Source: an uncultured Pelagibacteraceae bacterium
GTDB taxonomy: Bacteria > Pseudomonadota > Alphaproteobacteria > Pelagibacterales > Pelagibacteraceae
DNA: 64,000 nt
Assembly (NCBI GenBank): GCA_902615425.1
Contig: CACMPD010000005.1
Coordinates: 1-64,000 of the forward strand
Direction: 5' to 3'
Under the pieces are notes generated by a model, which was given only the letters and a program-made list of their open reading frames with translations, did no database searches and had not been told where the DNA came from. Shown in pieces: positions 3,863-56,722 of the stretch (within the stretch, counting starts at the first letter, position 1; each line of letters opens with the position of its first letter). Made by a program: the position numbers and the translations under genes.

Positions 3863-4774
3863 TTGAAAAAAATATTAATAATTTCAGGTGGAATTTCGAA
3901 AGAAAGAGCAATCAGTCTTGATACTGGAAAACAAGTAGCTAAGGAATTAAAAAAAAATAATTATTTTGTAAAAATAGCAGAGCCAAATTTCCAGTTATTT
4001 GATGTTATTAAAAAATTTAGACCAAACAAAATTTTCAATGCGTTGCATGGTCAGTTTGGTGAGGATGGTTATATACAAACAATATTAGAGAGTTTTAAAA
4101 TTCCTTATACTCATTCAGGTGTAATTTCATCATCAATAGCAATGGATAAAGTGTTATCCAAAAAAATTTTTATAAAGAATAAAATATTGACTCCAAAATT
4201 CTTTACCTTTTCTTTCGGCAAGGATGAAAAAAATGTTGTTAGAACCATTGAAAAAAAATTTAAATTTCCAGTTGTGATAAAACCAATCAATGAGGGTTCA
4301 AGTGTAAATGTGTTTATATGTACAAAAAAAGATATTAAACAAAAATTGATGTATTTAGAAGATTATAAAAAAATAATTATTGAAGAATTTATACCTGGTA
4401 GAGAGATTCAGGCTGCGATGATTGGTTCTAAGAAACTTGGTGCAATTGAATTAAAACCAAAAAGAAAATTTTATGATTATCAGGCAAAATATAATCCAAA
4501 AGCAAAAACGGAACATATTATACCAGTGGATTTACCAAAAAAAAAATACGAGCAAATAATGAAAATTTCTTACAAAGCACATAATTTAATAGGTTGTCGA
4601 GGAGTTACCCGATCAGATTTCAAATATTACAAGGGTAAGTTTTATCTTTTAGAAATTAATACTCAGCCAGGAATGACAAAACTTTCTTTAGTACCTGAGA
4701 TTGCTGCATTTCGTGGTATAAGTTTTATTAAACTTATTGAATTAATTTTGAAAGATGCTTCAACAAATAAATAG
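3863..4774 (+). CDS. ddl: Ddl, D-alanine-D-alanine ligase
   Basis: ATP-grasp ligase that makes the D-Ala-D-Ala dipeptide for peptidoglycan. The start is TTG, one base after the murB stop. Family motifs are NALHGQFGEDGYIQ near residue 60, YTHSGVISSSIAMDK, the ATP-binding KPINEGSSVNV and the metal-binding C-terminal EINTQPGMT. 303 aa. It overlaps ftsQ by 20 bases. Confidence 0.95.
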   Translation: MKKILIISGGISKERAISLDTGKQVAKELKKNNYFVKIAEPNFQLFDVIKKFRPNKIFNALHGQFGEDGYIQTILESFKIPYTHSGVISSSIAMDKVLSKKIFIKNKILTPKFFTFSFGKDEKNVVRTIEKKFKFPVVIKPINEGSSVNVFICTKKDIKQKLMYLEDYKKIIIEEFIPGREIQAAMIGSKKLGAIELKPKRKFYDYQAKYNPKAKTEHIIPVDLPKKKYEQIMKISYKAHNLIGCRGVTRSDFKYYKGKFYLLEINTQPGMTKLSLVPEIAAFRGISFIKLIELILKDASTNK

Positions 4775-5423
4775 GAAAATTATTTTTTATATTTCATTAG
4801 TAATCATTCTTGGCACTTTCAATAACAAAAATTTAAAAAATTTTGAACTTCCTAAAATTGATATAGTTAATATAGAAGGAATAGAATTTGATAATAATGA
4901 ATTTCTCAAAATCACGAATTTGACTAAATTTAATAACCTATTATCTATTCAAAAATCCCAGATAAAAGAAATATTAAACTCTAATAATTTAATTGAAGAA
5001 TATGAAGTATTTAAAAGATATCCATCATCTCTTGAAATCAAAATTGAAAAAACAGATTTTTTAGCATCTACTAATATAAATGGAAAAAATTATTTAGTTG
5101 GATCTAATGGGAAATTTATTCATACAAAAGACTATTCTCAAAATTTACCTTATATTTTTGGAAATTTTGAAACAGAAAAATTTTTAGAATTCAAAAATAT
5201 TATTTTTCAAACTAATTTTAAATACAATAATATCAAAAATTTTTATTATTTTCCCTCTGGTCGATGGGATATTGAAATGATCTCAGGAGTTTTAATTAAA
5301 TTACCAATCACAGGAATTAAAAAGACCTTAAATTTATCAATTGATTTACTTGAAGATATAGAATTTAGTAATATAAAAATTTTGGATATGCGTCAAAAAA
5401 ATCAAATTATTATAAATGATTAG
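4755..5423 (+). CDS. ftsQ: FtsQ, divisome scaffold protein
   Basis: Bitopic division protein with a short cytoplasmic N-terminus, one membrane helix (residues about 8-22) and a periplasmic POTRA domain (IDIVNIEGIEFDNNEF...). A beta domain follows (WDIEMISGVLIKLP). The identification rests on this architecture and on the position between ddl and the ftsA-like gene. At 222 aa it is shorter than most alphaproteobacterial FtsQ proteins and sequence conservation is low. Confidence 0.85.
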   Translation: MLQQINRKIIFYISLVIILGTFNNKNLKNFELPKIDIVNIEGIEFDNNEFLKITNLTKFNNLLSIQKSQIKEILNSNNLIEEYEVFKRYPSSLEIKIEKTDFLASTNINGKNYLVGSNGKFIHTKDYSQNLPYIFGNFETEKFLEFKNIIFQTNFKYNNIKNFYYFPSGRWDIEMISGVLIKLPITGIKKTLNLSIDLLEDIEFSNIKILDMRQKNQIIIND

Positions 5424-18961: not shown

Positions 18962-19047
18962 GCGGCTATGCTGAAATTGGTAGACAGGCACGGTTGAGGG
19001 CCGTGTGGACCTAGTCCATGAGAGTTCGAGTCTCTCTAGCCGCACCA
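18962..19047 (+). tRNA. tRNA-Leu (anticodon GAG), CCA encoded
   Basis: Acceptor arms GCGGCTA and TAGCCGC pair perfectly. The anticodon stem CACGG/CCGTG encloses the loop TTGAGGG with anticodon GAG. A long class II variable arm (TGGACCTAGTCCA) and a T arm with GTTCGAGTC are present, and the 3' ACCA is genomically encoded. 86 nt. Its last 34 bases are part of a 35-bp direct repeat whose other copy is at 20738-20772, marking it as the attachment site of the following island. Confidence 0.97.
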
Positions 19048-19102: not shown

Positions 19103-19131
19103 TGTGCTCAGAGTGTGCTCGTATTGTGCTC
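19103..19131 (+). repeat. Left arm-type repeats, 3 x TGTGCTC at 11-bp pitch
   Basis: TGTGCTC begins at 19103, 19114 and 19125, so the three copies have an exact pitch of 11 bp, about one DNA helical turn. The array starts about 55 bp inside the left attachment repeat. The same orientation and pitch recur near the right end. Equal phasing suggests cooperative binding by the N-terminal arm-binding domain of a tyrosine recombinase; that role is inferred. Confidence 0.8.
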
Positions 19132-19228: not shown

Positions 19229-19792
19229 ATGATAAAATTCAAAAAAAAATTATTATTCATTACAAATAATATTAAAAAATCATTTAAGAATTCTTTTAAT
19301 TATAAAGGAAGATCTCCTAGATCAGAATTTTGGATTTTACAAATATTTTCTATAATTTTTACTTCTGTAGTCATTTTTATCTTTATAGAGATGGAAACAT
19401 ATATGCTGGATAAAACCCAAAATAGTATATTTATGAATTTTGGTACGGAACTAGATAAAGGTCTCACTGGTGATGATTTGATGAAAAAATATGAAAAGCA
19501 ATTAGATATATACTTAAATTTAGTGTTTTATTTTTCTTATGCAATATTTTTATTTCCTTTGCTATCGCTAACAGTTAGACGCCTACATGATTTTGGAAAG
19601 TCAGGATATGTGTTAATTTTATTTTTAATGATTTCAGTCCCATTAGAAATAATAGATTTAAAAAGAGGCTGGATAGCTGATGATACGAATTTAACTTATT
19701 TTTGGTATGCCTTTACTATTGTTTGGCTTTTATATTTGTCTCAGAAATCTGATAAAAGAAAAAATAAATATGGACCAGTGCCAAAATATTAA
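19229..19792 (+). CDS. DUF805 family membrane protein (island cargo)
   Basis: 187 aa with the DUF805 hallmarks: FNYKGRSPRSEFW after a basic N-terminus, VRRLHDFGKSGYVLI after the second hydrophobic segment, and KNKYGPVPKY at the C-terminus. About four membrane helices are visible (residues ~34-55, ~95-115, ~125-140, ~155-172). The loop between the first two is longer than usual for the family and carries the acidic stretch TELDKGLTGDDLMKKYEKQ. DUF805 proteins are common on mobile elements and have no settled function. No other start codon is better supported. Confidence 0.85.
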   Translation: MIKFKKKLLFITNNIKKSFKNSFNYKGRSPRSEFWILQIFSIIFTSVVIFIFIEMETYMLDKTQNSIFMNFGTELDKGLTGDDLMKKYEKQLDIYLNLVFYFSYAIFLFPLLSLTVRRLHDFGKSGYVLILFLMISVPLEIIDLKRGWIADDTNLTYFWYAFTIVWLLYLSQKSDKRKNKYGPVPKY

Positions 19793-19888
19793 AAATAATG
19801 AAAAAACTAAAGCCCATCTAGTTTTATTTGAGGGAATTAAAATTCAGCTAATTAAAAAAGGGATTGCTTTTAAATGACACAAGATAGT

Positions 19889-20148: not shown

Positions 20149-20252
20149 ATGACTTGAATATACTCCAAAAAATAAATAATATCTATTTGTCCGTGATTTA
20201 GAAAAAACTCTACTTGCTTCGGACATAAAACAATAACGCTAAAGGAGGAAAT

Positions 20253-20435
20253 ATGGCTACCGTAAAAGGTATCTACAATCTAATAAAACAAGACCAGCTC
20301 AAAGGTATTAAAATATCTGTAATGGATCAGGCTATTATTGATGCTTGTGAAGCTGAAAACTCAAAAACTACAAAGGAAGTCAATTTAACTTTCATCAAAT
20401 ATAAAAAAGATGGGGGTGAAAATGGCAACAATTAA
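20253..20435 (+). CDS. Island microprotein A (60 aa, paralogue of microprotein B)
   Basis: Not recognised. A strong Shine-Dalgarno AAAGGAGG lies 5 bases before the ATG, which supports real translation. The protein begins MATVKGIYNLIKQDQ, has a helix-like middle ending MDQAIIDACEAE and a beta-like C-terminal TKEVNLTFIKYKKDG. Residue by residue it matches the following ORF (MAT-K--Y-L-K, Q--I-A-E, TKEV---FIKYK), so the two arose by tandem duplication. It is soluble with no membrane helix or cysteine cluster. It may be a small DNA-binding or regulatory protein, but nothing in the sequence proves that. Confidence 0.75.
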   Translation: MATVKGIYNLIKQDQLKGIKISVMDQAIIDACEAENSKTTKEVNLTFIKYKKDGGENGNN

Positions 20436-20595
20436 AAGTGTCTATGAACTTTTAAAAAAAAAGAAAGCTTCAGGTGAAAAGATTGGAATACTTGGACAAT
20501 CTTTAATTGAGGCCTTTGAGGAAGAAAAGGAAATTTCGAACACAAAAGAAGTTCATGTCTCCTTTATTAAATATAAAGACAAAAAGGATAAATAG
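20422..20595 (+). CDS. Island microprotein B (57 aa, paralogue of microprotein A)
   Basis: Not recognised. The ORF track starts at 20410. The ATG at 20422 is preferred because it gives MATIKSVYELLKKKK, aligning exactly with microprotein A, and because GGGGGTG precedes it. It overlaps microprotein A by 14 bases, so translation is probably coupled. Conserved with A are the N-terminal MAT-K--Y-L-K, a middle Q-LIEAFE and the end TKEVHVSFIKYK. Retention of two intact copies suggests a functional protein. Confidence 0.75.
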   Translation: MATIKSVYELLKKKKASGEKIGILGQSLIEAFEEEKEISNTKEVHVSFIKYKDKKDK

Positions 20596-20609: not shown

Positions 20610-20633
20610 CTCTGGCTTCTAATGGAGCCAGAG
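20610..20633 (+). terminator. Hairpin after the island microproteins
   Basis: Perfect 8-bp stem CTCTGGCT/AGCCAGAG with an 8-base loop, 15 bases after the stop of microprotein B. No T-run follows, so it is either a weak terminator or an mRNA-stabilising hairpin. A competing GATCCT/AGGATC pairing overlaps it. Confidence 0.5.
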
Positions 20634-20666: not shown

Positions 20667-20684
20667 TGTGCTCAGATTGTGCTC
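20667..20684 (+). repeat. Right arm-type repeats, 2 x TGTGCTC at 11-bp pitch
   Basis: TGTGCTC begins at 20667 and 20678, the same 11-bp pitch and orientation as the left array. The spacer after the first copy (AGAT versus AGAG) is also nearly the same, giving an 18-base near-identity (TGTGCTCAGANTGTGCTC). The pair lies 53 bp inside the right attachment repeat. Confidence 0.8.
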
Positions 20685-20737: not shown

Positions 20738-20772
20738 GTCCATGAGAGTTCGAGTCTCTCTAGCCGCACCAA
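20738..20772 (+). repeat. Right attachment repeat (orphan tRNA-Leu 3' fragment)
   Basis: Exact 35-bp copy of 19014-19048. The upstream bases (AATAGACAAT) bear no relation to a tRNA, so this is an attachment-site remnant and not a second tRNA gene. It lies three bases from the stop codon of the core gene ygfZ. Confidence 0.93.
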
Positions 20773-33782: not shown

Positions 33783-33930
33783 TTATTTGTAGCGCAGTTA
33801 TACAATGCAGTCAATAGGTTGTATTTTGAGTCCGTAATTGAATCAAAACTGAATCAAAACGTGAACATCGAAACTATATTTTGTATGCTTGTGGATAACT
33901 TTAACCAAGGATAGTTTAATTGAATATCAA

Positions 33931-38423: not shown

Positions 38424-41090
38424 ATGGCGGATAAATCATTAAATGAAATAAGAAGTACGTTCTTAAAATATTTTGAAAAGAATGATCATAAGATTGTTGA
38501 GTCTAGTAATTTAGTTCCAAATAATGATCCGACATTAATGTTTGCCAATTCTGGAATGGTTCAGTTCAAGAACGTATTTACTGGTTTAGAAAAAAGAGAT
38601 TATCAAAGAGCAACCACTTCTCAAAAATGTGTCAGGGCAGGAGGTAAACATAATGATTTAGAAAATGTTGGTTACACTCCAAGACATCATACTTTTTTTG
38701 AAATGTTGGGAAATTTTTCTTTCGGTGACTATTTTAAAGAAAGAGGAATTGAACTTGCATGGAATTTAATCACTAAAGATTTTGGTTTAGATAAAAATAG
38801 ACTTTACGTAACAGTTTTTCATGAAGATGATGAAGCCTTCAATTTCTGGAAGAAAATAGCGGGTTTTAGCGATGATAGAATTATCAGAATTTCAACATCA
38901 GATAATTTCTGGTCAATGGGTGAAACAGGTCCTTGTGGACCTTGCTCAGAAATATTCTACGATCATGGTGATCATTTAAAAGGTGGTTTACCCGGAACAA
39001 AGGATCAAGATGGAGATCGTTTTATTGAAATTTGGAACTTGGTATTTATGCAATATGAACAAGTTTCAAAAGATAAAAGAATAGATTTACCCAAACCATC
39101 TGTAGATACCGGAATGGGATTGGAGAGAATAGCTGCTCTTTTACAAGGCACACACGACAATTATCAAACTGATCATTTTAAAAAATTAATTAGTTCGATA
39201 TCAGATGTAACTAAAGTTAAACAAGCTGATAATAATATATCAAGTTTTAGAGTAATTGCTGATCACTTAAGAGCAAGTTCATTTCTTTTAGCTGAAGGTG
39301 TTCTACCGTCTAATGAGGGTCGTGGATATGTCTTAAGAAGAATTATGAGAAGAGGTATGAGGCATTCTCATTTACTAGGATCGAAAGAACCTATTTTTTA
39401 TAAAATTTTTGAGTCTTTAAAAAATGAAATGTCTAGAAATTATCCAGAGCTGGAGCGATCCAAATCTTTGATAACAGAAACATTAAAAATGGAAGAGGAA
39501 AAATTTTTAGTTTTACTTGATCGAGGAATTAAAATTCTGAATGATGAAATTTCAAAAATTGATAAAGTGTTGCCAGGTGAAGTAGGATTTAAATTATATG
39601 ATACTTATGGTTTTCCATTAGATCTCACAGAAGATATTTTAAAAAATAAATCATTAAAAGTTGATCATGAAAAATTTGATCTGTTGATGAAAAAAAGCAA
39701 AGAACTTGCAAAAAAAAATTGGAAAGGATCTGGGGACAGCTCAGAGGAAGCAATTTGGTTTTCAATTAAAGATAAAACTGGTCCTACAGAATTTTTGGGT
39801 TACGAGTCTAATCAATCTGAGGGAGTAGTGTTAAATTTAATTAAAAACAACCAGGAGTCAAAATCATTAGCTACTGGAGAAGAAGGAATGATTATAACTA
39901 ATCAAACTCCTTTTTATGGTGAGTCAGGAGGACAACTTGGAGATAAAGGCACAATAGTTTCTGGCAATTCAGTTTTTGAAGTTGAGGATACACAAAAAAA
40001 ACTTGGAGATTTATTTGTTCATTATGGATCAGTTAAAACTGGAGAAATTAAAATTAATGATGTAGTTGAAATGAAAATTGATATTGAGAGAAGAGACAAT
40101 TTAAAAGCTTATCATTCTGCAACTCACTTACTTCATGAGTCTTTAAGAAGAACTTTAGGTAAGCACGTGATGCAAAAGGGATCATTAGTTGCACCAGATC
40201 GTTTGAGGTTTGACTTTAGTCACATGAAACCAATTACTAATGAGGAATTAGAGACAATAGATAAATTAGTTAACGAATATGTTAAAAATGGTTCTGAAGT
40301 GACCACAAGAATTATGACACCTAAAGCTGCAATAGAAAAGGGAGCGCTAGCTTTTTTTGGTGAAAAATATGGTGAAGAAGTTCGTGTCGTTTCAATGGGT
40401 AAGGAAAAAGATGCTTATTTTTCAACAGAATTATGCGGTGGAACCCATGTAAAAAACACCGGAGATATTGGAAAATTTAAAACAGTCAGTCAATCATCTA
40501 TTGCTGCAGGAGTAAGAAGAGTTGAAGCTTTAAGAGACAAACAGCTTGAGGATTTTATTAAGAATAAAGAAAAGCTCTCAACTTTATCTGTACAAAAAGA
40601 TGAGGAGACTATCAAAGATTTGTCATCATTAATAATCAAACTTGGAGGTAAACCGAAAGTTGATAATAAAGATTTAAAAGAAATTATAAAAAATCTTTCA
40701 AAACAACTTGAACAGTTAAATGTTAACTCGGTTCTTCAAGATAAAACAAAAAATATTATTAATGACCAAAAAATAAAGGATATAAAAGTTCGATTTCAAA
40801 AAGTTCAAGATTTACCTCCTAAAGATTTGAGAAAATTAGTTGATAGTGGAAAAAAAGAACTTGGTGATGGGATTGTAATTGTTTTTGCAAGTAGTGAAGA
40901 TAAAGTTGGTTTAGGAGTTGGTATTACTGAAAAGCTAGTTGATAAATATGATGCCGTAAAATTCGCAAAATTAGGTTCAGAAATTATTGGTGGCAAAGGT
41001 GGGGGTGGTCGAAAAGATTTTGCCCAAGCAGGGGGACAGGATAAAAACAAAATTGATGAGGCTTTTGAAAAACTAAAGGCTTTAATTTAG
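38424..41090 (+). CDS. alaS: Alanyl-tRNA synthetase
   Basis: Charges tRNA-Ala and edits Ser/Gly mischarging. The N-terminal class II catalytic core ([27 protein letters not shown]), the editing-domain zinc motifs [12 protein letters not shown] and [15 protein letters not shown], and the C-terminal DHHA1 domain ([19 protein letters not shown]) are all present. 888 aa, full length. Its end overlaps the convergent icd gene by 9 bases. Confidence 0.98.
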
Positions 41091-56534: not shown

Positions 56535-56560
56535 CTTTTTTCCACACATGTAAGAATATC

Positions 56561-56722
56561 CCGTCACGGGAGAGACTACAGATTATCGTAGCGCCGAAGG
56601 AGCAACCACCCAGGAATCTCTCAGGCAAAAAGGACCGTAACATATTAACTCTGGAAAGAGATTTAATTCTCGCCGAAGGAGCAAAACTCTCAGGCAAATA
56701 TACAGATGGGTACAAAGAGTTA
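56561..56722 (+). promoter_or_regulatory. Tandem glycine riboswitch upstream of gcvT
   Basis: Two aptamers. The first runs from about CGGGAGAGACT through CGCCGAAGGAGCAA to CTCTCAGGCAAAAAGGACCG. The second (CTCTGGAAAGAGA..CGCCGAAGGAGCAAAACTCTCAGGCAAATATACAGATGGG) follows after a short linker. Both cores carry the canonical CGCCGAAGGAGCAA and CTCTCAGGCAAA blocks. It ends 2 bases before the gcvT start, so the switch probably acts by exposing or hiding the ribosome site (ACAAAGAG), turning on glycine cleavage when glycine is abundant. Confidence 0.95.

Follow-up and report, generated by a model that had tools for sequence, protein, structure and literature searches.

Tandem microproteins of a pelagiphage-related family behind a SAM-II/SAM-V-like leader RNA in a SAR11 genome

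In the stretch of DNA analyzed here (64,000 nucleotides of a Pelagibacter (SAR11) genome, in the following called the window), two adjacent small genes, A and B, lie in a segment of about 1.7 kb that is bounded on one side by tRNA-Leu(GAG) and on the other by a 34-nt stretch that repeats the 3' end of this tRNA gene perfectly. We favor, with modest confidence, the view that A and B are host-resident microproteins of a pelagiphage family that stand behind a translational riboswitch variant of the SAM-II/SAM-V type and likely act on related phage. Judged by their sequences, both proteins belong to a gene family of HTVC023P-related pelagiphages (the MAT family), and the RNA preceding A is a conserved, covarying pseudoknot that is predicted to hide the ribosome site. 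A sequence-only reading had already drawn attention to the tandem; it had missed the structured leader at 20186-20248, the phage relatives, and the occurrence of the same leader at unrelated microprotein loci.

A tandem of intact microproteins in a tRNA-Leu segment

The segment contains the following features.

18962..19047, + strand: tRNA-Leu (GAG), whose 3' end (19014-19047) is the left boundary repeat (ARAGORN; 34-nt perfect repeat)
19103..19131, + strand: three TGTGCTC units with a period of 11, possibly left-end integrase arm-type sites (pattern count)
19229..19792, + strand: DUF805 membrane protein, a passenger gene of the segment (Pfam PF05656, E 7e-19; PHROG 12855, E 4e-12)
19810..19852, + strand: 3'-end remnant of a DUF1330 gene (by eye against L003 near 4739-4782; DUF1330 assigned on L026)
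20253..20435, + strand: microprotein A, MAT family, 60 aa (ORF call, BLASTP, family searches, tree)
20422..20595, + strand: microprotein B, MAT family, 57 aa, sharing its first 14 nt with A (ORF call, BLASTP, family searches, tree)
20610..20633, + strand: inverted repeat CTCTGGCT..AGCCAGAG 3' of B, a possible transcript end (by eye; kept in L003 and L004)
20667..20684, + strand: two TGTGCTC units with a period of 11, possibly right-end arm-type sites (pattern count)
20738..20771, + strand: right boundary repeat, a second copy of the 3' end of tRNA-Leu (34-nt perfect repeat)

A and B are both intact ORFs, and B has an alternative, longer in-frame start at 20410. The proposed paralogy was borne out by BLASTP of A against B, in which 24 of 52 residues (46%) were identical with an E-value of 2e-15, so that the likeness is not due to chance. 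The 14-base overlap (20422-20435) and the strong ribosome sites were also found as described, with AGGAGG at 20243-20248, 4 nt upstream of A, and GGGGG upstream of B. For most diverged pairs of the MAT family, dN/dS was about 0.11-0.39, and the ORFs were intact in the related loci L003, L004, and L007-L010. Because of these two observations, we regard A and B as coding on comparative evidence.

The tandem had been said to match no recognisable family, and indeed no usable match was obtained in Pfam, PHROGs, NCBIfam, PADLOC, or the PDB sequences. Neither a housekeeping family nor stop codons in relatives turned up, neither A nor B matched a DNA-binding family in Pfam or PHROGs, and PADLOC gave no anti-phage defence profile match for A, B, or FFEKIGD, the microprotein family described below. 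Two helices were predicted both for the MAT family (pLDDT 71) and for FFEKIGD (pLDDT 87), and neither predicted fold had a match in the PDB or BFVD at E 0.001.

The 34-nt repeat agrees with the tRNA-bounded setting that had been proposed. TGTGCTC repeats with a period of 11 lie near each end within the segment, the pattern being found 3 times versus 0.01 expected per window; other genomes, whose cargo differs, likewise have these repeats next to tRNA-Leu. An integrase ORF was seen neither in the segment nor in the short tRNA-Leu segments of other genomes, a search for attachment sites in phage records returned matches to tRNA genes only, and the idea of a phage satellite met with neither an integrase nor packaging genes in the segment. 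The terminator scan called nothing at the inverted repeat 20610..20633, and a promoter candidate upstream of the leader (TTGAAT-17-TAATAT, by eye, 8/12) was under the cut-off of the promoter scan and is given no weight here.

Across genomes, the tRNA-Leu(GAG) site differs in its cargo (L003, L004, L009, L020, L023, and L026), and two of these loci, L003 and L026, have an intact DUF1330 gene there. As a side observation, this SAR11 site carries variable short cargo (DUF805, DUF1330, T5orf172, and unknown ORFs), with TGTGCTC repeats just past the tRNA gene in several genomes and no visible integrase; the segments are possibly elements moved in trans. Elsewhere, the window matches RF01827 (SAR11_0636 sRNA) with 111 bits at 33817-33906 and RF00504 (glycine riboswitch) with 64.6 bits at 56557-56647.

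Phage relatives and origin of A and B

Viral relatives were sought in IMG/VR with short peptide patterns and tblastn. The presumed link to phages was substantiated by MAT relatives in 19 viral contigs, 41-59% identical (family profile), and the ends of the gene preceding MAT were alike in 19 of 19. In the five contigs that were read gene by gene, the position of the MAT gene was constant, between a large gene (572-834 aa) on one side and a RecB-like exonuclease on the other, followed by a helicase on the opposite strand. By their neighboring genes, the nearest records include HTVC023P-type pelagiphages; the MAT gene itself had no match to any phage record in the record collection.

The SAR11 genome G118 and the phage contig L165 share 217 bp at 93% identity, of which about 49 bp belong to the terminal part of the phage gene that precedes MAT. 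As this match extends into the end of a phage gene, the G118 copy is best read as a capture by the host from a phage.

In a tree of 59 columns, with moderate support for such short proteins, A grouped with G232 and the phages L152, L161, L162, and L166 (support 82/84), and B with G149, G135, and G118 and the phages L163-L165 (support 91/91), with host and phage sequences interleaved in both clades. Since both clades include phage members, the split between A and B probably predates the tandem, and the two genes look less like the product of a simple local duplication than like two alleles stacked side by side. The earlier proposal of an ancient duplication kept by selection is therefore borne out only in part, since A and B probably diverged before they came to stand in tandem.

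MAT genes in other SAR11 genomes

In a profile search, the MAT family was clearly present (E below 1e-20) in 8 of 399 Pelagibacter genomes; completeness varies among these genomes, so absences are soft. The arrangement differs from locus to locus: the leader, a 48-aa ORF, and both A and B in L003; the leader, the 48-aa ORF, and a single B in L004; and the leader with one A-like gene in L009. Divergent members are found next to hisG in L014, where a Z1/HATPase cluster also adjoins, next to hisG in L015, close to a cytosine methylase, and upstream of a restriction helicase in L016. The question had been raised whether homologues lie on other tRNA-bounded islands or on phages; they do occur on other islands and in the 19 viral contigs, and a tRNA boundary was seen for the tRNA-Leu islands only. 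As to copy number, islands have one or two copies, and single copies are common (L004, L007, L009, and the phages that were read).

In four host operons (the window, L003, L004, and L010), the upstream gene ends 14 nt inside the MAT gene, and a G-rich ribosome site lies within the last codons of that upstream gene. This 14-nt overlap resembles a movable junction at which small genes could be exchanged for one another.

The surroundings of the divergent members deserve mention in their own right. Near hisG, L014 carries at 11596-19926 genes for a HATPase and a protein with a Z1 domain, together with additional ORFs and the C-terminal part of a cytosine-methylase-like protein, a cluster that resembles a restriction-like defence island with the MAT gene and leader at its edge. 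L014 (9178-9693) and L015 (10242-10685) also encode apparently related proteins of 171 and 147 aa, of unknown family, near the MAT genes.

One alternative is that A and B represent phage debris, neutral or in decay, whose expression behind a host leader is accidental and whose tandem has no function. Such a reading would be in line with the gene remnant at 19810-19852 and the lack of a visible integrase in the segment, with copy number and cargo that vary between strains (L003, L004, L009, and the window), and with the dN/dS of 0.46-0.89 among the closest B copies, which differ by few changes. However, the ORFs are intact, dN/dS is about 0.13-0.39 between diverged host and host-phage pairs, and MAT genes stand behind the same leader, or inside its operon, at several unrelated loci. 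We therefore consider debris improbable.

A conserved leader RNA overlaps the ribosome site of A

The leader has the following parts.

20186..20248, + strand: SAM-II/SAM-V-like leader RNA, 63 nt (covariance models, alignment)
20188-20193 with 20220-20225, + strand: P1 (alignment)
20195-20200, + strand: third strand GAUUUA (alignment)
20208-20217 with 20238-20247, + strand: P2, which overlaps the Shine-Dalgarno sequence AGGAGG at 20243-20248 (alignment)
20213, + strand: C at the position where SAM-II/SAM-V have A (alignment)

The 63-nt leaders differ little from locus to locus, although the proteins encoded there share only about 50% identity. With a covariance model (R1) built from seven leaders and roughly calibrated, the leader was found in 80 of 399 Pelagibacter genomes and in 52 of 397 genomes of the order, there confined to one family and 4 of 13 genera. 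A pattern search of viral contigs in IMG/VR did not find it, apart from two coincidental matches inside phage coding regions. The genes flanking the leader fell into 87 clusters; as 68 of these are singletons, the unit of leader and gene is scattered over many places.

Covariation was assessed in an alignment of 83 R1 matches, six of which are weak. P1 covaries, with 72 double-change cells versus 18 in shuffles and all six pairs affected, and its score of 0.518, reached by 0 of 500 shuffles, compares with 0.185 for shuffled alignments and at most 0.119 for slid registers. The GAUUUA third strand is present in nearly all copies. P2 pairs CUCUAxUUGC with GCUAAAGGAG, is nearly invariant, and holds most of the Shine-Dalgarno sequence; its core UUGC/GCUAAA is kept in 75 of 77 copies, and its extension CUCU/GGAG is paired in nearly all, via U-G or U-A changes. 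As P2 hardly varies, covariation supports P1 only. In two leaders, the P2 core has changed to UCGU with UCUAAA; L112 (1537-1598) stands before a truncated ORF and L114 (1588-1649) before no called ORF, and the two are either decayed copies or a further variant.

Genes behind the leader

Nearly all strong copies of the leader precede ORFs of about 50-90 aa, mostly of the FFEKIGD family and otherwise MAT, GGPVGP, or small basic ORFs. FFEKIGD, the commonest target, is without a known family and under purifying selection (median dN/dS 0.19). The window's own genome has a second leader copy before a 55-aa FFEKIGD microprotein (L036, 1507-1739; G000:C2 about 39398-39630). GGPVGP variants (L045 and L048) were placed distantly with the MAT family by MAFFT, and homology between MAT and FFEKIGD is unsupported (hhalign probability 0.7%). 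In one pattern search of IMG/VR, FFEKIGD was not found in viral contigs, and for this reason the switch is, by its distribution, not primarily an anti-phage device.

An overlapping pair of unequal paralogs could also be a small regulator or a toxin-antitoxin-like pair, and FFEKIGD has weak HicA-like matches (PF07927, E 0.055, in 3 of 15 members; PHROG 353 toxin, E 0.042). These hints are under any cut-off, however, and concern FFEKIGD rather than A and B, which have no DNA-binding family match; moreover, the common single-copy MAT genes argue that a fixed pair is not needed. This makes such a pair very doubtful. By Pfam, FFEKIGD does not qualify as a HicA toxin, its best E-value of 0.055 falling short of the cut-off, and A and B gave no HicA match.

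Relation to SAM-II and SAM-V and the question of the ligand

No Rfam family was reached at the leader at gathering scores. SAM_alpha (RF00521) is, however, a recurrent sub-threshold match exactly there, in 9 of 20 scanned loci with 19.5-27.5 bits, and with an E-value of 7e-5 in a focused search. The window leader scores 10.5 bits and others up to 27.8 bits, under the gathering score of 36 bits, which the genuine metX SAM-II of SAR11 (25.3-30.4 bits) likewise fails to reach; in the complete genome G298, the leader has 27.8 bits versus 29.2 bits for the genuine metX SAM-II. Reciprocally, model R1 finds the bhmT SAM-II weakly (25 bits). RF01826 (SAM-V) has no match at the leader, its sole copy in the window's genome preceding metY, and RF01726 is absent among the Rfam matches up to E 10. 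Upstream of that metY, SAM-II and SAM-V stand in tandem (L033, 1441-1567). The SAM-II half has only 12.7 bits against RF00521, and the Rfam thresholds therefore miss SAR11 copies of SAM-II.

The leader has P1 and the GAUUUA third strand 5' of P2, as in SAM-II/SAM-V, and the pocket feature UUG(C) opposite (G)CUAAA in P2, which is near-invariant and without covariation support. In SAM-V, SAM is contacted by U8-U10, U19, U20, G21, U47, and A48-A50 (PMC6061858), and the contact positions have counterparts in the leader, A18 excepted. A18, which in SAM-V pairs with the amino-acid-binding A50 (PMC6061858), is A in six SAR11 SAM-II/SAM-V sequences (metX, bhmT, and metY SAM-II; metY SAM-V) and C in 76 of 77 leaders, the one copy with A being L113. 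Because of this near-invariant pocket base and the unreached Rfam cut-off, we do not file the leader as a member of either class, although it probably works like a SAM-II/SAM-V switch.

As A18 is replaced in 76 of 77 leaders, the ligand may not be SAM. The leader could be a SAM-II-derived aptamer with a changed ligand, for example SAH or another sulfur or methyl metabolite, and A and B would then be metabolic rather than anti-phage proteins. The A kept in the methionine-related SAR11 switches named above fits this view, as does the commonest downstream family, FFEKIGD, being host-only in the searches made. On the other hand, the leader retains every other named SAM contact, the U-A-U triple next to the sulfonium among them; a C at the A18 position can still provide an amino group; L113 is a natural copy with A; and a purely metabolic role is difficult to reconcile with the existence of phage relatives of A and B. 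We consider a changed ligand rather unlikely.

Proposed mechanism

Under the preferred reading, a riboswitch variant that governs phage-family proteins, the leader would form an H-type pseudoknot in which the Shine-Dalgarno sequence of A is part of the P2 extension (CUCU with GGAG). At high levels of the ligand, most likely SAM, this pseudoknot would close and A would not be translated; such an OFF switch is expected by analogy with SAM-V switches, in which abundant SAM prevents translation (PMC6061858, PMC5069961). When the ligand falls, A would be translated, and B would follow, probably by coupling through the 14-nt overlap. One leader would in this way drive a small set of exchangeable microprotein genes, FFEKIGD and the phage-derived MAT, at many genomic places in SAR11.

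Low SAM would be a mark of sulfur or methyl stress, which infection may also cause. SAR11 genes controlled by SAM-V rise under sulfur limitation (PMC5069961), and infection with HTVC027P, which is of the HTVC023P type, raises the cysteine/methionine and DMSP-demethylation genes of SAR11 (PMC12753301). Taking these two reports together, it is plausible that SAM drops upon infection and that translation of A and B is thereby released. The phage-derived proteins might then act on a related phage, for instance by serving as decoys of the phage's own protein or as its partners, and such interference is our leading guess for their function. In its strongest form, the proposal is a riboswitch-triggered immunity, in which a SAM-reading switch sits over captured phage alleles and the disturbance of methionine metabolism by HTVC023P-type infection releases interfering proteins; we put this forward as speculation that is unlikely to hold in full. 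If the preferred reading is true, SAR11 may switch virus-derived genes on and off by a metabolic gauge, and a metabolite riboswitch would be linked to genes taken from phages, for which a limited literature search found no precedent.

Comparison with known systems

The phage contigs with MAT genes resemble HTVC023P in the exonuclease (52% identical), the helicase neighbor, and a 263-aa gene (38% identical, and 38-46% across the HTVC023P-type records), but HTVC023P has no MAT gene at the corresponding place. Among the riboswitches, RF01726, known from Bacteroidetes and from marine DNA, is a long-loop variant of SAM-II (Weinberg 2010, PMC2864571) and is similar in this respect. The leader shares with SAM-V (RF01826) the translational layout, in which a P2/P2a helix occludes the Shine-Dalgarno sequence, and the same contact nucleotides except A18, but it lacks the P3 hairpin and is not matched by RF01826. 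From SAM-II (RF00521), it differs in that it scores under the gathering score, has C at A18, has longer loops in L1 and L3, holds the Shine-Dalgarno sequence in an extension of P2 by 4 bp, and precedes microproteins instead of methionine genes. Nevertheless, it has in common with SAM-II the H-type pseudoknot, the GAUUUA third strand, the UUGC/GCUAAA core, the A-rich L3, and the alphaproteobacterial occurrence, and its covariance-model score is similar to those of the genuine metX and bhmT SAM-II of SAR11.
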